From contig NZ_FMDO01000030.1 in NCBI RefSeq assembly GCF_900095305.1, positions 62,001 through 126,000 of the forward strand: a DNA stretch of 64,000 nt, read 5' to 3'. This stretch comes from Proteiniborus sp. DW1. GTDB lineage: Bacteria > Bacillota > Clostridia > Tissierellales > Proteiniboraceae. Positions 9,175-39,961 of the stretch are shown here, piece after piece (the first letter of the stretch is position 1; each line of letters begins with the position of its first letter). The notes beneath the pieces are model-generated. The model ran no database searches. It was not told the DNA's origin and worked only from the letters and a program-made list of their open reading frames with translations. The position numbers and the translations under genes are program-made.

Positions 9175-9867
9175 CTATTTGTAAAACACGTGTCCACCGA
9201 TACGTGTTACATATGTCTTGTTATTTATAATCCATTTACCTGCTGCTTTATCTGGATTGAAAAAGTAAGTTGAAGCTCCTACTGGCTTAACACCATTTAG
9301 AGCATCTTTTGCTACTTGTATACTTTCTTCCGATGGGCTATTGTAGATAGTTCCATCTTCTACTGGGCTAAATTGAGGAATACCTTTATAGTATTCGAAT
9401 ATTACGCCCTTTATCGTGTTAGGGAAATCACTTGAAGCCACTCTGTTTAGGACAACATTTCCTACAGCTACTTTCCCTCTATATGGCTCCCCACCAGCTT
9501 CTGCATGGATAATACGAGAAAGCCAATATAAGTCTGTGTTACTGCTACCAGAGTTTGTCCCACGTGAAGCTGAAGTTCTATACAATAATGATTGAGTTTG
9601 TCTACCTGCAATTCCATCAATGAGTATCTTGTTAGCTTTTTGAAACTCAATAACTGCTTTTTCAGTTCTGGGACCGAAGATACCATCAACATTTCCAGCC
9701 CAGAAGCCTTTATTATTTAAAGTCTGTTGTAATTTAGATACTTCTGGCCCCCTGCTCCTAAACTTTAAAACTGTATAATTTTCAGTAGCAAAGACACTTG
9801 TTATGTTCAGTAAGATTAATACTATTACTAAAATTAATACTACAATTCCTCTTTTACGTATTTTCAT
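9175..9867 (-). CDS. sleB: Secreted cell-wall hydrolase, PG-binding + SleB (Hydrolase_2) domains
   Basis: A peptidoglycan lytic enzyme of the SleB/Hydrolase_2 family. The order is signal-anchor (about residues 6-26, basic start then hydrophobic), a PG_binding_1 domain (about 32-92, with LQQTLNNKGF and DGIFGPRTEKAV), a Ser/Gly linker, and the SleB catalytic domain (about 110-230). IIHAEAGGEPYRGKVAVG contains the catalytic Glu. The ATG at 9867 is chosen over an in-frame GTG at 9876 that lies within the ribosome site AGGAAGGAGTG. It follows a c-di-AMP riboswitch and a consensus vegetative promoter. These argue for a role in growing cells (wall turnover) rather than, or besides, spore cortex lysis. 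Confidence 0.88.
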   Translation of the reverse strand: MKIRKRGIVVLILVIVLILLNITSVFATENYTVLKFRSRGPEVSKLQQTLNNKGFWAGNVDGIFGPRTEKAVIEFQKANKILIDGIAGRQTQSLLYRTSASRGTNSGSSNTDLYWLSRIIHAEAGGEPYRGKVAVGNVVLNRVASSDFPNTIKGVIFEYYKGIPQFSPVEDGTIYNSPSEESIQVAKDALNGVKPVGASTYFFNPDKAAGKWIINNKTYVTRIGGHVFYK

Positions 9868-9885
9868 TGAAAACACTCCTTCCTA

Positions 9886-10008
9886 TTTTGCTTCCGAAGT
9901 TAGCTGACGGGTTCGGGATAGAAGGCTCCCTACTATGAGACTCATAGATTAACCCCTTTAATGGTTCCTCCGTACCTAAATATATAGGATTCAGCAAGCA
10001 TAGTGTTT
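9886..10008 (-). promoter_or_regulatory. ydaO/yuaA-type c-di-AMP riboswitch
   Basis: On the minus strand the leader contains the conserved blocks of the ydaO aptamer in order: GCTTGCTGAATCC, GGTACGGAGGAACCA, GGGGTTAATC, TAGGGAGCC, then ACCCGTCAGCTAACTTC and GGAAGC. These riboswitches sense c-di-AMP and commonly precede wall hydrolases and K+ transporters. No terminator lies between the aptamer and the gene. The 3' arm of the closing helix (GCAAAATAG) directly abuts the ribosome site AGGAAGGAG, so control of translation start is likely (inference). Confidence 0.9.
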
Positions 10009-13231: not shown

Positions 13232-13801
13232 ATGGAACAGCTAAAGAAAAAGATATTAGAAGAAGGTAGTGTAGAAGAAGGGAATATTTTAAAGGTTGAC
13301 AGTTTTCTAAATCATCAATTAGACATTAAGTTTCTAAATGAGGTAGGAAAAGAATTTAAAAGACTTTTTGATGATAGAAAGATAACAAAAATACTAACAC
13401 TTGAAACATCAGGCATAGCTATAGCAAGTATTACTGCCCAGTATTTCAATGTTCCAGTAGTGTTTGCTAAGAAGATTGCAACAAAGAATCTTGATAAGGA
13501 AACTTATGAAAGTGATGTTTACTCATATACCAAGGGGAGAACCTATAAGATTAAGGTATCAAAAAAATATATTAAACCAGATGATCATATTCTTATTATT
13601 GATGATTTTTTAGCAAATGCACAGGCTGCATTAGGTCTTATGGATATTATTAATAAAGGTGGGGCTACTCTAGAGGGAATTGGTATAGTAATAGAAAAGG
13701 GCTTCCAAGATGGAGGAAAGCTCCTAAGAGAACAGGGTGTTAATCTAAAATCACTAGTAATTATAGATTCATTTGATGGAGATAAAGTAAAGTTTAGATA
13801 G
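13232..13801 (+). CDS. xpt: Xanthine phosphoribosyltransferase
   Basis: Salvages xanthine (and related bases) to XMP using PRPP. The 189 residues match Xpt length. [16 protein letters not shown] is the family's base-side region (about residues 54-69) and [17 protein letters not shown] (about 123-139) is the PRPP loop. GGGAGG precedes the ATG. Unlike the Bacillus gene it has no partner xanthine permease here, and no purine riboswitch was found in the 190 bases upstream. A strong terminator follows at once. Confidence 0.93.
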
Positions 13802-17751: not shown

Positions 17752-20700
17752 TCATCTCACTATATCCTTAATTCTATTTAACCGCAAAATGTCATTTTTC
17801 AAATATTCAGAAGGCTTAATATTTAAGTCATATTCTATAAACCTACCTAGCTCAGGACATCTAGGAGTTATGAATACTTCACCTAAATGTTTAAGAGTCA
17901 AATTTTTTTCCTCTTTTAATAAATATTCTCTCTCAATAGTTTGCAATATATCAATGGAATTTAGTATACAAGTTTCTGATAACTTAATAATAGATTCTTC
18001 AGAAGCATTTTTAATGAAATTAGGAAACATATAGGGCATTATTAAGTTGATAGAAGGAATCATGTATCTTTTGGGCTGATCTCCTGTTCGTACAGAATCT
18101 CCTCCCATAAAAGGATATAGCTGACTTTCATCAAACCATACTCTTAGGTTAGGAATAAAATATGCAGAGTCTACTTGAGTTTCGCTAGCATCAGCAAATT
18201 CTTTTCCTCTACCAGAAAGAATACCTACTATTGTCTTATCTACAGTTATGCCTTCTTGTTTAAGAAGAGGACCAATGGCTTTCATCCTATACCCCTTGTG
18301 AAGCAAATCATCAATCAATATCACAGCTCTATTGAAGGAACGCAGTAATTTAATCTGATTTTCTAAGCTCATATGATATCTAGAAGGTACAATGGTTGAG
18401 CTTTGTAAATCTGGTTCAAATTGCTTTTCAGTATGCATTGATTTAGTAACAGTATTAGGGACTATTGAGCCTTTTAATATAGAACCAAAGGGGACACACA
18501 TTAAGGTTCCGAGGGTTTTAGGTTCTATTACTTTTACTGGGACATCGTTAGTTTTACAAATCTTGTGAATTAACTTTTTATGCAAAATTTCCATATCAAA
18601 TGATAGTAATAAGTTGCCTGGATAAAGCTTAGTCAATGCTAATTGAAGCTTTTTTCTTGCTTTTCTTATTGAGTTTAAAACACTTTCATTGCTCTTAAAA
18701 GGGTCTTTAATTACAGTTTCGATATTAAGATATAAGGTGCAAGGGTTAGTCATGTTTACCTTATATATAGGCTTATCTTTTTCACAAAAAGGTACTAGCT
18801 GAAATCCTTGAAGTTCAAGTGTTTCATATAAATCCTTTGCCAAATACGAGCCTATACAGCTTTTAAAAACAGCATAAGTATAGTCTTCTGAAAGGCACAA
18901 TGCAAGGGTTTCTGTAAGCAAGATTTGGTTTAAATTTTTGTATTTTGATGAATTATCAATATATATTCCATCTATTAACAAAACCCTACCTATAGCATCT
19001 TGTCTTAGATAATCAGATACTTCATGATTTCCGAATTCTCTAAAGAACATTCCTGATTTGATCCAATGAAACATAGAAAATCCTAGGATATTTCCGTTGT
19101 TACTATCTTTTACTAATATTATACGAGGACTAATCTTTGACTTTAAGCTAGATAACTTACTGAAGGCAATTTTATCATCATTAAAAAATACTTGGCATAG
19201 TTTTGATAACAGATCAGTGTCAATATGCTCAACTATTTTAATGTCAAGAGAAGTAGTTTGGAGTAATGTCTTATATTGAGGTTCTCTCCTATATACACCA
19301 TATTCATAGATATATTTCTGTGCCAGAGGGTCTATAAGTTGAGAGATATCCCTGTCTTCATCTATATATGTTCTAATTTGAGTTGAACTTATGTCTTCAT
19401 ATTGAGGAGGAAGTGATAGCCTAATTATTTTTCCTCTAATGTTCTGAATTGCTTCCTCTAGCTTTTTATCATCATGTTCTGCAGAAACTATACTTCTTCT
19501 ATCGAAGATAATATGAGGGAAGGTATGTATTGAATCCTCAGCTTGTTCATTTTTGTAGCTAGAAGCATTTAGTATTACATCACTTCCAACTACTATATGA
19601 ATACTAGAGTTTGAAAAACACTCTTTCAATGCCTTCAAATCTCTATTATTTGCTATATTAATCTGAATATCCTCTGGAAACAGGTAGATTCCTAATTCAT
19701 CGGCTATGGATATATTTATAATTTCACGTCTTAATAGATTTGGCTGAGTCATTTTAGACCATGAAAACTCATCAACAGCTAAATATACATCAAATCCTAG
19801 ATTTCTTATTGCCAATGCTATCTCTTTGTGACTCAAAGAAAAGGGATCAAAAGTCCCTGGGAAAAATGCCACATTGGGATTATGCTTAATTTCAAAGCTC
19901 CCATAATAGAACACATAATCTGATATAAATCTATATACGTGATTTAATGCTGCTGAATTGTTTAAAAAAGCAAGCTTATCTTTATCAATTTCTACTAATA
20001 GAGTAAGTAGCTTCTTCAAAATAAGCTCGAAAATCTTTCCTTTTTCTTTTAATGGAAGTACAGGTGAACCAAGTATTTCCTTACCTATTACTCTAAAGGC
20101 TTCATGACTAATTTGATAGTCATAGTTAGCAAGTCCATTTAACAATATTCCCAGCATTTTTTTGAGTCTTTGCTGATTTTTTTCTATATCCTCATCAAAT
20201 CTTTCCCTGTATTGTGGATAATTTTCTATGGCACTTCCTATGGTTCTGAGCAGTAGAAAAGTGACTTGAGGGCTAGATTGTTTAACTTTTTCGATAAAAT
20301 CCTCGATTACTTCATCTAATTCTACAGGGTGCAAATATAAAAGCATCTTTCCCAAATAGGGAGGGATGTACTTGGTAAACTGAAAATCCTGCATTTCAAG
20401 AGCACGCAAAAGTTCAACACTTACGTCATTTCTCTCAACTAAACTAAGATGAGGGAAAAGCTTAAGTAATGCTTGACCAGCACGTGTCCTCACACTCTCA
20501 GTAGCACTTACTTTAATTAAGTTACAGTAATGCATGGCTGTATGAAGTCCATTTTCTCTTGGAAATTCCAGCCCAAGTTCAAGAAGAAAATCAATAGATA
20601 TTTTCTTGATTACCCAGCTTGTAGCAGTTTTTAAATTCTTTAGAAAAGTATCTGAAACTCTTGCATGATCATCAAGGAAATAGCTCCTAAATAAGGCTTT

Positions 20701-22626
20701 AGTTTTATCCTCAAAACTTAGTACTTTAGATATTTTATATTTTAGAAAATTTATCGGAACAATATCTGGGTAATTAGCATTATCAGTTAGATTAATGATT
20801 ATTTTATCAAAACCATTGTTGATTTGAGAAGAAAGATAATATATGCCTTCAAGGGCAGATAGTTCAATATCTAAGTTATAGCTATTACTCATTCTTTCAA
20901 CAAATCCAAGTACCTTATGACACTCTAACTCTTTATATTTGCTAAAAGGTATATATTTTATAGTTTGAATTAGATAAAGAATAGCATCATCTTCAAGACT
21001 GTAAGCAGTATCATAATAGTTCAGCATTACATCGGTAAAGTTCCTTCCTTGATCTTCGCTACAGTGTTTAAAGAGTGATCCTATCATATCTTCTAAGCAT
21101 AATCCTATCCATTTTCTGTGTGTTTCAATTATTTTATGGTCAGGACATAGGAATAAGCTAACATACTTAGCTAGAAGCATGCTACTAGTTATTTCTGGTG
21201 ACTCTATATTTACATCATCAGGTACTTCTTTTCTATACACTTCATCGAATAGTGCTATGAATTTACCTATTAATTGTGCACATTGCTTTCTAACATCCTC
21301 TTCCTTGTGAGTTAAAAAGTCATAAAGAAAGTTAAGAGTAATTAGTTTTTGCCTTTGAGTTAAAAAAGTAGAGTATTCTTCGAAAATATTAATATAACCT
21401 CGAAGTTTTTTCCAGTCAGTTTCGCTTGCAGCCATTTCCAGAATAGTATTTAATGAAGTTTCGTTTCTAAATATATTCATCACATGAATGTTATGCTCAA
21501 TAGCTTTGTATTTAATATTATCTATTATTTCTTTTCCCTGCATAAGTGAAACGTGCTTCTTACTTTTGCTAGTCAACTTAACTCCATCTAAGTCAACATT
21601 TACTCCGGCATCAATTATAAAGTTTTCAAAATCCTTAAGCTTCGAATATACTCTTTTGTATCTTTTTTCTTTTTTCAAATCCACATTATCTAGCTTGTTC
21701 AATATAATATCAAAGGATTCCTCAAGTGAATAGATATGCATGATTCTACTACCATCAGGTAATTCTTTATTCTTAACTCTAAAGTCTGAATATATCAAAA
21801 CGAGAGATTCAATTGGTAGATTTTCTAGCTCTAAATCCCATGTAGAATGATAGGTAGCTATATGTCCTATGTAGGGTAAATTGTGTTTCTTAAACCATAC
21901 ATCAGTGTAGTAATAGTGTAGATAAGGAACTCTTTGATATTCACTTCTGCTACAGCCAAATTTACCTATATCATGTCCTGCTGCTGCGCCAGATAATTTG
22001 CAAAGGTCAATTGGAAGACTTATCTCTTTAATCTGTCTACCTATGAATAGTGCTAAATAATGAACTCCACAAATATGGTCAAGAGTATTGTGGTTAGTGA
22101 TTTCCTGATGGAGCTTCATCATTTCATAAACATAGAGATTATTAAATACATTTTTAAACTGTCTATATTCAGCTAAGCTTGCAGACTTTTTTTCTTCCTC
22201 AGAACTGAGAAAGATTAGAGGATATTTGCTTTGACAGGTACTTGTACTCATGTTTTTTTCAAACTCAAATACTACCCTAAGAGCCTTAAGATAGAAAATT
22301 ATGACAGGGTTATATTTAGGGTCTACATCTATATCGATAGCATTAGGAAATGACTTATTTAGACTAAATTGATAGACATAATATAATAGGTTGTGGGGAG
22401 GCTTAGTACCGAATATTTGTATGAGAAGGTTTTCACAAAGGCTTAAAACAGCCTGACAACTAAAGTCTTTTTCTTTAATCATTTTCTCCAGATTATCTAT
22501 GAAAGAATCCTTTAATATATTATCACTAACTATTTTTGCATCTAGTGAAAGTTCAGTCAAAAATTTTTCATTCATTAAGGCTCTTACTAATTTATTATGT
22601 AGTTTTTGAACCAATGACTTGATCAT
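17752..22626 (-). CDS. Giant multidomain protein: HD + helical repeats + NadD-like + GNAT-like + PRTase-like
   Basis: 1,624 residues with no signal peptide. An N-terminal HD phosphohydrolase-like region has H184, the HD pair H218-D219 in GHDIGKFG, and further histidines near 256-262. Residues about 360-890 are alpha-helical repeats of HEAT/ARM character. About 915-1110 is a nucleotidyltransferase of the NadD type: FFPGTFDPFSLSH with D927 and H933, ending in ISSTQIR. About 1118-1280 looks like a GNAT acetyltransferase (weaker). About 1310-1600 resembles a phosphoribosyltransferase, with VILIDDLLHKGYRMK (D1439, D1440) as the PRPP loop. AAGGAGG precedes the ATG. Individual domains are known; their union and role are not. 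Nucleotide or NAD-like cofactor chemistry is inferred. Confidence 0.8.
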   Translation of the reverse strand: MIKSLVQKLHNKLVRALMNEKFLTELSLDAKIVSDNILKDSFIDNLEKMIKEKDFSCQAVLSLCENLLIQIFGTKPPHNLLYYVYQFSLNKSFPNAIDIDVDPKYNPVIIFYLKALRVVFEFEKNMSTSTCQSKYPLIFLSSEEEKKSASLAEYRQFKNVFNNLYVYEMMKLHQEITNHNTLDHICGVHYLALFIGRQIKEISLPIDLCKLSGAAAGHDIGKFGCSRSEYQRVPYLHYYYTDVWFKKHNLPYIGHIATYHSTWDLELENLPIESLVLIYSDFRVKNKELPDGSRIMHIYSLEESFDIILNKLDNVDLKKEKRYKRVYSKLKDFENFIIDAGVNVDLDGVKLTSKSKKHVSLMQGKEIIDNIKYKAIEHNIHVMNIFRNETSLNTILEMAASETDWKKLRGYINIFEEYSTFLTQRQKLITLNFLYDFLTHKEEDVRKQCAQLIGKFIALFDEVYRKEVPDDVNIESPEITSSMLLAKYVSLFLCPDHKIIETHRKWIGLCLEDMIGSLFKHCSEDQGRNFTDVMLNYYDTAYSLEDDAILYLIQTIKYIPFSKYKELECHKVLGFVERMSNSYNLDIELSALEGIYYLSSQINNGFDKIIINLTDNANYPDIVPINFLKYKISKVLSFEDKTKALFRSYFLDDHARVSDTFLKNLKTATSWVIKKISIDFLLELGLEFPRENGLHTAMHYCNLIKVSATESVRTRAGQALLKLFPHLSLVERNDVSVELLRALEMQDFQFTKYIPPYLGKMLLYLHPVELDEVIEDFIEKVKQSSPQVTFLLLRTIGSAIENYPQYRERFDEDIEKNQQRLKKMLGILLNGLANYDYQISHEAFRVIGKEILGSPVLPLKEKGKIFELILKKLLTLLVEIDKDKLAFLNNSAALNHVYRFISDYVFYYGSFEIKHNPNVAFFPGTFDPFSLSHKEIALAIRNLGFDVYLAVDEFSWSKMTQPNLLRREIINISIADELGIYLFPEDIQINIANNRDLKALKECFSNSSIHIVVGSDVILNASSYKNEQAEDSIHTFPHIIFDRRSIVSAEHDDKKLEEAIQNIRGKIIRLSLPPQYEDISSTQIRTYIDEDRDISQLIDPLAQKYIYEYGVYRREPQYKTLLQTTSLDIKIVEHIDTDLLSKLCQVFFNDDKIAFSKLSSLKSKISPRIILVKDSNNGNILGFSMFHWIKSGMFFREFGNHEVSDYLRQDAIGRVLLIDGIYIDNSSKYKNLNQILLTETLALCLSEDYTYAVFKSCIGSYLAKDLYETLELQGFQLVPFCEKDKPIYKVNMTNPCTLYLNIETVIKDPFKSNESVLNSIRKARKKLQLALTKLYPGNLLLSFDMEILHKKLIHKICKTNDVPVKVIEPKTLGTLMCVPFGSILKGSIVPNTVTKSMHTEKQFEPDLQSSTIVPSRYHMSLENQIKLLRSFNRAVILIDDLLHKGYRMKAIGPLLKQEGITVDKTIVGILSGRGKEFADASETQVDSAYFIPNLRVWFDESQLYPFMGGDSVRTGDQPKRYMIPSINLIMPYMFPNFIKNASEESIIKLSETCILNSIDILQTIEREYLLKEEKNLTLKHLGEVFITPRCPELGRFIEYDLNIKPSEYLKNDILRLNRIKDIVR

Positions 22627-22825: not shown

Positions 22826-23785
22826 TTACTCAACCTTTAATTCAAAATTTCCTACTCCCATATCAACTTCAATACTAGCTTTTGATACAGAGTTTTCGTA
22901 ATTAGGGGAGATGTACCAGCCATTTTCTTTTTTCCAGTTTAAATCATTAAGGTTACTGTGTTTTAAGGCTCCATCCAGTTTGACTCTTACTCCTAAGTCT
23001 TTTGGAACAGAGATATTGATGTTTGTAGCTCCAGCATCAATATCTACTTTTAGATTTTCAACATTGTTTCCTAATAATAGGTTTATATCACCAGCACCAA
23101 AATCTAAGTCTAATTTATTTACTCTAAGGTCTCTAAAATCTATATTTCCATTAACTACACCAATGTCACCTTCTATATCCCAAAGCACCTTGTCAGAAAG
23201 AGTAAAATTACTTTTATATCCTTTGTTTCCTCTTAGATTAATTTTATTATTTTTTTCTCTTATAACAATTCTAGCTTTCTCACCACTATTAGAATAGTCA
23301 ATACTATTATTAACATGTTGACTTTCTATATATCCATCAAGTAAGTTCATATCAGATGCAGAGTCAATTTCCAAATCAACTTCACCTAGTTCTAGATCAA
23401 GAGAAGCTTTTTTTGTTTTATCATCAAGCTGGTATGTTATATTTCTAGAAGATCTCTTATTGCTATTAGAATTAGAACTTGCATTGAAATCAGCATTGAG
23501 ATCTATGTTTATGTTAGAGTTTTTACTTATATTTGTTTGATAGTCTTTATATTGCAAATAAAAACCATAAGCGATGACTATTACAAAAAAGCCAATCCAT
23601 ACTAGAGTTTTTATAGTTCTCTTATCGTTAAATACTATAGAAGCACCTGCTGCGATTAAGATTAGGGGCCACAAATCAAAGGCCACTTCAAGTATTGACC
23701 ACCTGATTAGGTCTAGATTATAAAGCAGCAAAAATATGCCGATAAAAACCAGAATTCCTCCAAAAATAAAATTATTTCTTTTCAT
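22826..23785 (-). CDS. LiaF-like membrane protein with adhesin-like beta tail
   Basis: 319 residues. The first ~85 contain three to four membrane helices (LiaI/LiaF-type DUF5668 pattern, FGGILVFIGIFLLLYNL). A hydrophilic linker rich in Asn/Ser follows. The C-terminal ~190 residues are a repetitive beta structure with alternating DLELGEVDLEI, DFGAGDINLLL, DIDAGATNINISV and DMGVGNFEL strands, the DUF4097/LiaF 'toastrack' type. Such proteins act in envelope-stress signalling. GGGAGG precedes the ATG at 23785, which overlaps the end of the PspC gene by 14 bases. No LiaRS two-component genes are nearby. Confidence 0.8.
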   Translation of the reverse strand: MKRNNFIFGGILVFIGIFLLLYNLDLIRWSILEVAFDLWPLILIAAGASIVFNDKRTIKTLVWIGFFVIVIAYGFYLQYKDYQTNISKNSNINIDLNADFNASSNSNSNKRSSRNITYQLDDKTKKASLDLELGEVDLEIDSASDMNLLDGYIESQHVNNSIDYSNSGEKARIVIREKNNKINLRGNKGYKSNFTLSDKVLWDIEGDIGVVNGNIDFRDLRVNKLDLDFGAGDINLLLGNNVENLKVDIDAGATNINISVPKDLGVRVKLDGALKHSNLNDLNWKKENGWYISPNYENSVSKASIEVDMGVGNFELKVE

Positions 23786-24209
23786 TGAAATTCCTCCCAT
23801 TGACTATTATATATAAGCCAGCTAAAACAAGTATGATTCCACCAAAGTTAACAAAATCTAACCAGTATAAGAACTTCTTTGCAAAAATAAAAGTCCCTAA
23901 TGCTATTAATCCAATTCCTAGGATCATATTGTTCTTTTCATCTCTGTTTGTAGGATTATTATCATAAGTATATTCAGAGGTATAACCTCCATCAAAAGTA
24001 GTTTCTTTTCTATTATAGTAGCTATAAGGAGCTTCTGGAATAATAATCATACAAACAATATATGCAATAATTCCAATTGCCTTGGTAAAGAACAATAAAA
24101 CACAGACTAATCTTATAATTACAGGATCAACATCAAGGTAATCTGCTAGTCCTCCACAAACTCCTCCAATAACTTTATTTTCTTGCGAACGATAAAGCTG
24201 CCTACTCAT
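23772..24209 (-). CDS. PspC-domain membrane protein
   Basis: A 145-residue protein. The N-terminal PspC domain is clear: RLYRS-like start, KVIGGVCGGLADYLDVDPVIIRLVCVLL (about residues 12-39) and IAYIVCMIIIPEAP, where one amphipathic and one transmembrane helix stand. A polar Tyr/Asn-rich linker follows, then two further membrane helices (about 95-135) of the LiaI type. AAAGGAG precedes the ATG. It is the first gene of a two-gene operon with the LiaF-like gene, which suggests a joint envelope-stress or membrane-damage sensing role; that role is inferred from the family. Confidence 0.85.
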   Translation of the reverse strand: MSRQLYRSQENKVIGGVCGGLADYLDVDPVIIRLVCVLLFFTKAIGIIAYIVCMIIIPEAPYSYYNRKETTFDGGYTSEYTYDNNPTNRDEKNNMILGIGLIALGTFIFAKKFLYWLDFVNFGGIILVLAGLYIIVNGRNFNEKK

Positions 24210-39732: not shown

Positions 39733-39922
39733 ATAAAGAATGAATTGTTTCCTGAGATGTACGATAGTCTATGATAATTCAACCGACATATTATATACGG
39801 GAGTCTGAGTTCATTAGTTGATGATATGCCTGTTCTAACAGGACATCAGAGGTTAGTGGCAGGACACCCACCTGCAGAAGTGCGGGTGTGAATTAGCTAG
39901 ACCGCCGGCATCATGGGAATAT
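39733..39922 (+). ncRNA. ssrS: 6S RNA
   Basis: The 5' end TTTCCTGAGATGTACG and the 3' end ACCGCCGGCATCATGGGAAT are the closing-stem sequences conserved in 6S RNA and pair with each other. The ~190-base length and a largely unpaired centre between them agree. It binds the sigma-A RNA polymerase holoenzyme by mimicking an open promoter. A consensus promoter stands before it and a strong terminator after it, so it is an independent gene. Confidence 0.85.
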
Positions 39923-39961
39923 AAAATCCTTAAGCAACTGCTTAAGGATTTTATATTTTTT
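39921..39961 (+). terminator. Terminator of 6S RNA
   Basis: ATAAAATCCTTAAGCA pairs perfectly with TGCTTAAGGATTTTAT, followed by ATTTTTT. Confidence 0.88.

Follow-up and report, generated by a model that had tools for sequence, protein, structure and literature searches.

The window analysed here, a stretch of 64,000 nucleotides from Proteiniborus sp. DW1, carries one open reading frame on the minus strand that encodes a protein of 1,624 amino acids, in the following called the giant protein, and downstream of it two partner genes on the same strand (Table 1). An earlier note on this DNA had placed nucleotidyltransferase and phosphoribosyltransferase (PRTase)-like regions in one polypeptide, and both are indeed part of this single reading frame. 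From the N to the C terminus the protein consists of a helical region, an HD domain, a HEAT/ARM array, a NadD-like nucleotidyltransferase domain, a GNAT-like domain, a type I PRTase-like domain and a tail. This five-domain chain replaces the simple bifunctional enzyme that had been envisaged; the HD, HEAT and GNAT-like parts and the two partner genes are additions to the earlier description. The protein has a single match in its own genome (3.12 Mb, 99% complete). A search with Rfam revealed no riboswitch before the operon, and 37 promoter-like sites were found vs 38.0 expected from shuffles.

Table 1 Position of the giant gene, its domains and motifs, its partner genes and other features of the window
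Feature	Residues	Position	Strand	Basis
Giant protein	1-1624	17752-22626	-	one ORF
Ribosome site aaaggaggtttttatg		upstream of giant ATG	-	AGGAGG; graded good
N-terminal helical region	1-140	22207..22626	-	poorly conserved, identity 0.28
HD domain	141-345	21592..22206	-	Pfam HD and two-metal ligand set
HEAT/ARM-type helical array	374-900	19927..21507	-	Pfam HEAT and structure matches
NadD-like nucleotidyltransferase domain	about 917-1115	19282..19878	-	Pfam, TIGR00482, profile, fold
GTFDPFSLSH	924-933	19828..19857	-	variant of T/HxGH nucleotide-binding motif
ISSTQIR motif	1079-1085	19372..19392	-	translation and 80-sequence alignment
GNAT-like domain	1124-1293	18748..19257	-	fold match
Type I PRTase-like domain	about 1300-1515	18082..18729	-	APRT/HPRT models, structure list
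PRPP-loop-like VILIDDLLHKGYR	1435-1447	18286..18324	-	alignment of 80
C-terminal tail	1516-1624	17755..18081	-	identity 0.50
Partner gene 2: LDH/MDH-like dehydrogenase, extra N-terminal residues		16368..17660	-	Pfam, TIGR01771, PDB
Partner gene 3: FMN_red protein, ~160 extra N-terminal residues		15322..16371	-	Pfam FMN_red, E 9.3e-21
Xanthine phosphoribosyltransferase		13232-13801	+	NF006671, 270.9 bits
c-di-AMP riboswitch		9874-10006	-	RF00379, 96.2 bits
6S RNA		39746-39923	+	RF00013, 89.4 bits
PspC-like protein and LiaF C-terminal match		22826-24209	-	LiaF match weak (20.4 bits, below cut-off)

Other features of the window may be mentioned in passing. The c-di-AMP riboswitch reads towards the ORF 9175-9876 (minus strand). 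Since it shares three bases at its end with the mechanically called GTG start of this ORF, translation probably begins further in. The PspC-like and LiaF-like sequences adjoin the giant operon; such clusters are present in few of the other giant loci.

Domains of the giant protein and their conserved residues

Domains were assigned via Pfam, NCBIfam, two AlphaFold2 models (residues 1-900: pLDDT 88.5, pTM 0.84; residues 881-1624: pLDDT 87.9, pTM 0.87) and structure matches. Conservation was read from 80 sequences (79 named loci and the window, L106 having dropped out of the clustering), some rows of which are cut by contig ends. Smaller alignments were picked by hand for spread: A1 with 26 sequences (the window and 25 of 29 loci), A2 with 32 of 37, A3 with 30 of 36, A4 with 47 (the window, 39 of 79 named loci and 7 others) and A5 with 30 (the window and 29 of 75 named loci). 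From conservation, the HD, nucleotidyltransferase and PRTase-like domains read as the working parts of the protein: over the 80 sequences their mean pairwise identities are 0.61, 0.59 and 0.58, and 24%, 23% and 19% of their columns are at least 97% identical. The corresponding values are 0.50 and 10% for the tail, 0.44 and 8% for the HEAT array, 0.34 and 3% for the GNAT-like domain and 0.28 and 0% for the N-terminal region.

The nucleotidyltransferase domain scores 22 bits with Pfam CTP_transf_like (cut-off 21) and matches the NadD model TIGR00482 with E 1.8e-10, its 41.2 bits (46.3 in a second run) not reaching the cut-off of 112.45. Profile-profile comparison with ten canonical NadDs, from the own genome and nine relatives, gave E 9.3e-18. 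In the C-terminal model of 744 residues, NadD matches cover about positions 35-234 and GNAT matches about 244-413 (model numbering); the fold match to NadD extends over 188 residues (VIA Z 16.0, rmsd 3.0). Most residues of the stretches GTFDP..H and ISSTQIR, which had been described as NadD-like, are conserved in the family. D927 and H933 are present in 79 of 79 rows, K958 and D1016 in 80 of 80. ISSTxxR is a NadD motif, and in the giant family S1081 and R1085 are found in 80/80 and S1080 in 79/80, with Thr (49), Ser (30) or Ile (1) at position 1082. At the T/HxGH site the last His is invariant (79/79), the first position is Ser in 67 and Thr in 12, and the third is Ser in 58, Gly in 20 and Arg in one, so that the majority of sequences have a variant of the motif. 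From the alignment we take H933, K958, D1016 and D927 to be the equivalents of H19, R46, D109 and D13 of E. coli NadD. According to an excerpt of PMC1249556, T/HxGH is the nucleotide-binding motif of NadD, H19, R46 and D109 are assigned to the active site of the E. coli enzyme, and a change of D13 lowers its activity. Compared with the ten NadDs, PPHK has become SWSK and the Trp after GAD has become Tyr in all 80 sequences. The residues concerned, S957 and Y1024 (each 80/80), presumably take the places of E. coli H45 and W117 (same alignment). These two stack on the pyridine ring in E. coli NadD (PMC8035330, in part), and thus both the stacking His and the stacking Trp are replaced. Since the transfer residues are kept and the pyridine-stacking pair is not, the transfer chemistry is likely retained and the acceptor changed.

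For the PRTase-like domain, an APRT model picks up 40 of the 47 family members at E<=1 (best 2e-6), an archaeal HPRT model 29 of 47 at the same limit (best 1.3e-5). Sequence support is weak for the window protein alone, which with Pfam PF00156 scored 13.7 bits (18.2 in a second run), which does not reach the cut-off of 26.3. Profile comparison with clostridial HPRT was weak (E 0.0087, or 0.0044 with A4; controls 0.025 and higher) and aligned only the PRPP loop, and a profile search of the PDB with the alignment of this domain gave nothing significant, the best hit (E 0.15) being an HPRT. In a viral structure library Hpt (E 9.6e-5) and other PRTases match the 744-residue model, with no aligned range given. 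PRTases are absent among the 50 PDB matches listed for the C-terminal model, which are filled by NadD and GNAT; a single domain can fill such a list, so this absence shows nothing.

The usual PRPP motif ends in TGxT, in general with Thr or Ser in the last place. In the giant family the loop ends in KGYR (K1444 79/80, G1445 80/80, Y1446 76/80, R1447 80/80): a terminal Thr or Ser is absent and Arg stands there in all 80 sequences. A loop of the ordinary kind is EDIIDSGLT, ending in Thr, in an excerpt of PMC6783271. Of the paired acids ascribed to the loop in the earlier note, D1439 is invariant (80/80) and D1440 is replaced by Asn in 14 sequences and by Thr in one, so that 65/80 have both acids; it is the KGYR ending that does not fit. 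The loop of the window's xanthine PRTase, DDFLANAQA, also departs from the usual ending, so a changed PRPP loop alone does not show inactivity. W1497, F1498 and E1500 are present in 80/80, and in an alignment with HPRT the two aromatic residues fall near its base-stacking aromatic; this neighbourhood is only suggestive. Loss of catalytic residues, named in the earlier note as the test of its proposal, was not found in the nucleotidyltransferase domain and is ambiguous for the PRTase-like domain.

Pfam HD was matched by 19 of 30 family members (E<=1, best E 1.6e-6). Its metal ligands are invariant in the rows that cover them, H184, D219, H237, H260 and D281 in 77/77 and H218 in 78/78. The pattern H..HD..H..H..D marks a YqeK-like dinuclear site according to an excerpt of a review (PMC8177086), where HD phosphatases are also said to have a strictly conserved Arg, typically at position -3 relative to the first His. 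At the corresponding position of the giant protein, residue 181, this Arg is absent in 77/77 rows (Thr 71, Asn 3, Ser 2, Ile 1). With the six ligands kept but the Arg missing, a two-metal site is likely and phosphohydrolase activity is less certain. Profile-profile comparison with YqeK was weak (E 0.0078; controls 0.061 and higher), a profile search of the PDB with the HD alignment gave nothing significant (best E 0.27), and the HD part is not among the structure matches listed for the N-terminal model, where again one domain can fill the list.

Pfam HEAT was matched by 23 of 30 members (E<=1, best E 3.5e-6). Structure matches of the HEAT/ARM type cover residues 374-900 of the N-terminal model with a best Z of 14.6; the tool cautions that helical repeats, which match many things, commonly give Z values below about 13. 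The fold of about 500 residues resembles CAND1 and importins, and HEAT arrays usually bind macromolecules. The GNAT-like domain aligns with arylalkylamine N-acetyltransferase over 157 residues (VIA Z 14.8, rmsd 2.9). The acetyl-CoA loop of GNAT is RxxGxG/A; none is found in the 11 rows displayed of the 80 giant sequences, and the domain is degenerate.

Distribution of the family and linkage of the partner genes

Many anaerobes have the giant protein along with both partners. When the own genome and 59 relatives were searched, 46 of the 60 matched at E<=0.001; six of them (G005, G009, G017, G049, G055 and G057) were excluded with less than 40 bits, as they look like ordinary NadD, which leaves 40 carriers. 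G007, G020 and G021 have partial matches, and loci were obtained for 30 of the matches. In a sample of the phylum 8 of 398 genomes, the own one included, match at E<=1e-20. Whole matches in both samples are single ORFs of roughly 1,570-1,670 amino acids. The scan of named genomes used the best 80 of at least 463 stretches related to the C-terminal half, among which there may be plain NadDs or PRTases; this set overlaps with the 60 genomes, some organisms being common to both. Among the matches listed are Clostridium, Caloramator, Alkaliphilus, Natronincola, Geosporobacter, Sedimentibacter, Tissierella and Acidaminobacter, as well as metagenome-assembled genomes (MAGs) labelled Atribacteria. 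A contig search with the single giant protein gave no match, whereas a search with alignment A2 did.

Partner genes were sought by clustering ORFs of at least 90 amino acids around the giant gene in the 80 named loci and the window. The giant cluster comprised 80 loci, gene 2 was found in 73 and gene 3 in 69, and every other cluster in at most 9. All three genes occur together in 69/80 loci, the giant gene with gene 2 in four and the giant gene alone in seven. Eight of these 11 incomplete loci have less than 2 kb of downstream sequence left; L060, L080 and L121 have about 10 kb, yet lack one or both partners. Strands agree throughout the 69 three-gene loci, and the gap between the giant gene and gene 2 is below 100 bases in 68/73 (5,366 in L047). 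Genes 2 and 3 were detected in 39 of 40 giant-bearing genomes vs 0 of 20 others (E<=1e-10); in the lone exception, G020, the giant match stops at residue 1504. The distances of the three proteins correlate over the 69 loci (r 0.69, 0.76 and 0.79), and none of 999 permutations was as high.

Gene 2 matches Pfam Ldh_1_N with E 8.5e-5 (23 bits; cut-off 27), TIGR01771 with E 2.7e-7, below the cut-off, and a malate dehydrogenase of the PDB with E 5.2e-5. LDH and MDH have a catalytic His, a substrate Arg and a relay Asp. In gene 2, R223, R297, H321, M294 and D255 are invariant (73/73); we take H321 to be the catalytic His and R223 and R297 to be of the catalytic type, with M294 presumably at the place of the LDH relay Asp and D255 in place of Asn. 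Gene 3 has no sequence match in the PDB at E<=0.01, and its cysteines 207, 210, 215 and 224 (CX2CX4CX8C) are present in 69/69.

Several contexts were considered and rejected. A role in anti-phage defence was dropped since PADLOC gave no match at E<=0.1 for the giant protein, gene 2 or gene 3. Phage cargo was rejected because no phage record was among the matches and the viral contigs gave seven pattern matches, none a relative. For plasmid cargo the sole "plasmid" record is one of 2.6 Mb from Acetoanaerobium. Sporulation was rejected because SpoIVA does not track the giant protein: all six f3 genomes have the giant protein and no SpoIVA, and the three g8 genomes show the reverse. The record just mentioned, pTPELB2 of Acetoanaerobium noterae (L170, NZ_CP154629.1), encodes a giant homologue with 40.7% identity; its size of 2.63 Mb suggests a mislabelled chromosome.

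Relation to NAD synthesis and possible functions

The genome has NAD enzymes apart from the giant protein. There is a separate NadD (C42; 197.8 bits in TIGR00482, over the cut-off) and a dedicated nicotinate PRTase (NF006415, 452.8 bits vs a cut-off of 243). The latter is of a short type of 350 amino acids (C42:82947-83303) that PF04095 misses; in the own genome there is no match to PF04095 and no NadC over the cut-off. The idea that the giant protein replaces nicotinate salvage was abandoned when a weak NadC match in the own genome turned out to be this nicotinate PRTase. NAPRT (PF04095) is present in 25 of 40 giant-bearing vs 15 of 20 other genomes and thus does not separate the two groups, so there is no complementary pattern. 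The giant protein looks like an addition to NAD synthesis rather than a replacement, and like a nucleotide-handling machine distinct from the ordinary NAD enzymes of the cell. What had been proposed before was a route from a free base to an NAD-like product in one protein. Coupled nucleotide-handling domains are there, as that proposal has it, but an NAD-like route starting from a pyridine base is unlikely. Type I PRTases are not known to act on nicotinate; their substrates are purines, pyrimidines or orotate. The occurrence of PRTase-like and NadD-like domains in one chain speaks for straight NAD-like salvage, with a free pyridine base turned into an NAD-like dinucleotide; against it stand the equivalents of H45 and W117, replaced in 80/80, the dedicated nicotinate PRTase and NadD of the same genome and the NAPRT counts, and we regard it as very improbable among the readings considered.

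The domains, the conservation of most catalytic residues, the linkage of three genes and the separate NAD enzymes are observed. Starting from these, it is tempting to speculate, with a probability of roughly 0.3, that the giant protein makes or salvages a non-pyridine dinucleotide, with the HD domain as companion or correcting hydrolase. The PRTase-like domain would transfer ribose 5-phosphate from PRPP to a purine-like base other than nicotinate, and the NadD-like domain would join AMP or another NMP, taken from an NTP, to that mononucleotide to give the dinucleotide. The HD domain might hydrolyse wrong or excess phosphoanhydride products, as YqeK fused to NadD does, and the HEAT array may act together with the GNAT-like domain, which is degenerate, as a scaffold for the active sites. 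The two partners, an LDH-like dehydrogenase and an iron-sulfur flavoprotein-like reductase, could be there to reduce or use either the base or the completed product. All chemical steps, the substrate, the way in which the flux runs and what the partners do are inferred. Dinucleotide synthesis is favoured by the nucleotidyltransferase residues that are kept and the pyridine-stacking pair that is lost, by the HD, nucleotidyltransferase and PRTase-like domains being best conserved, by the HD ligand set with the precedent of YqeK and NadD, by the acids of the PRPP loop and the matches to the APRT and HPRT models, and by the three-gene linkage next to a separate nicotinate PRTase and NadD. It is disfavoured by the Arg at the end of the loop, the PRTase score below the Pfam cut-off and the weak profile matches of the PRTase-like and HD domains; a small-molecule synthase would not need a macromolecule-binding HEAT array, and the missing phosphatase Arg (77/77) argues against the hydrolase step.

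The same domains allow other readings. The giant protein could serve metabolite repair or degradation, the HD domain opening damaged dinucleotides and the other domains rebuilding or reducing them with the redox partners, damaged NAD(P) or flavin being examples. To our knowledge there is no repair system with this set of domains and partners, which counts against it, as does the missing Arg of HD phosphatases, and the altered pyridine pocket would force another binding mode on any substrate of the NAD type. Two redox-type genes do travel with the giant gene, canonical NAD enzymes are found beside it in its own genome, and YqeK with NadD, the precedent, likewise serves repair (PMC9426524, in part); on balance we consider repair unlikely. 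A sensor or regulator appears quite doubtful; here the PRTase-like domain would be a binding site for PRPP or (p)ppGpp, with no transfer, and would set the activities of the HD and nucleotidyltransferase domains. PRTase folds do serve as regulators in PurR and PyrR, and the PRPP loop is altered to KGYR. An excerpt of PMC6783271 describes (p)ppGpp binding to the PRPP motif of HPRT. The conservation of the PRTase-like domain, however, almost reaches that of the HD and nucleotidyltransferase domains, down to W1497, F1498 and E1500 in 80/80, and there is no DNA-binding family among the Pfam matches of the giant protein.

The array of about 500 residues with its likeness to CAND1 and importins would suit a modification of macromolecules, in which the HEAT part docks protein or RNA, the nucleotidyltransferase domain adds a nucleotide as writer and the HD domain removes it as eraser. 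Against this, the NadD-like class transfers to small mononucleotides and the linked LDH-like and flavin-type genes suggest small molecules instead; this reading, too, we hold to be rather improbable. To return to dinucleotide synthesis, a bolder version is that anaerobes, Clostridia included, have a dedicated non-pyridine dinucleotide cofactor or signal, made from a purine-like base in one chain by the PRTase-like domain (mononucleotide) and the NadD-like domain (dinucleotide) and corrected by the HD domain, with the partners loading electrons or using the product. It is highly tentative.

Taken by itself, a five-domain chain with near-invariant active-site residues that is kept together with two redox-type partners across Clostridia and in MAGs labelled Atribacteria deserves attention. 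A dinucleotide product different from NAD and FAD would mean a new cofactor or a new signal, and repair of one would mean a new repair route. In the literature, searched by title and start of abstract and with most subscription papers outside coverage, no description of this architecture was found, which is weak evidence of novelty.

Comparison with known systems

NadD (TIGR00482) shares with the giant protein the fold and the elements GxFDP..xxH, GxD and ISSTxxR; the differences are the score of 41 bits vs a cut-off of 112 and the changes from PPHK to SWSK and from GAD..W to GSD..Y. With HPRT and APRT, type I PRTases of PF00156, it has in common the acids of the PRPP loop and a stretch of IP followed by an aromatic residue near the base site, whereas KGYR instead of TGxT, the Pfam score below the cut-off and extra residues before the PRPP loop set it apart. 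The model of the DVU_1551 family NTP transferase (NF045665) was matched by 29 of 30 members in the HD domain (best E 1.4e-6), but in only one stretch, positions 189-260 of 359 in the case of the window protein. Gene 3 resembles iron-sulfur flavoprotein (Isf) in its FMN_red domain and four invariant cysteines. In Isf the cysteines are spaced CX2CX2CX4-7C; gene 3 differs in its CX2CX4CX8C and in its N-terminal extension of about 160 residues.

By analogy, the nearest functional precedent for HD and NadD-like domains in one chain is the NadD-YqeK protein of mycoplasmas. There, according to an excerpt of PMC9426524, YqeK fused to NadD cleaves NadD products and is proposed to be a proofreading diphosphatase. 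The fusion, like the nadD-yqeK gene pair of Firmicutes, combines a NadD-type nucleotidyltransferase with a two-metal HD domain (PMC9426524, in part). Canonical nadD adjoins a YqeK-like HD gene in 10/10 regions, those of the own genome and nine relatives. Thus, the genome of Proteiniborus keeps the ordinary pair in addition to the giant protein, which differs from it in that the HD domain comes first, far from the nucleotidyltransferase and without the phosphatase Arg, in that the pyridine pocket is changed and in that HEAT, GNAT-like and PRTase-like parts are added.
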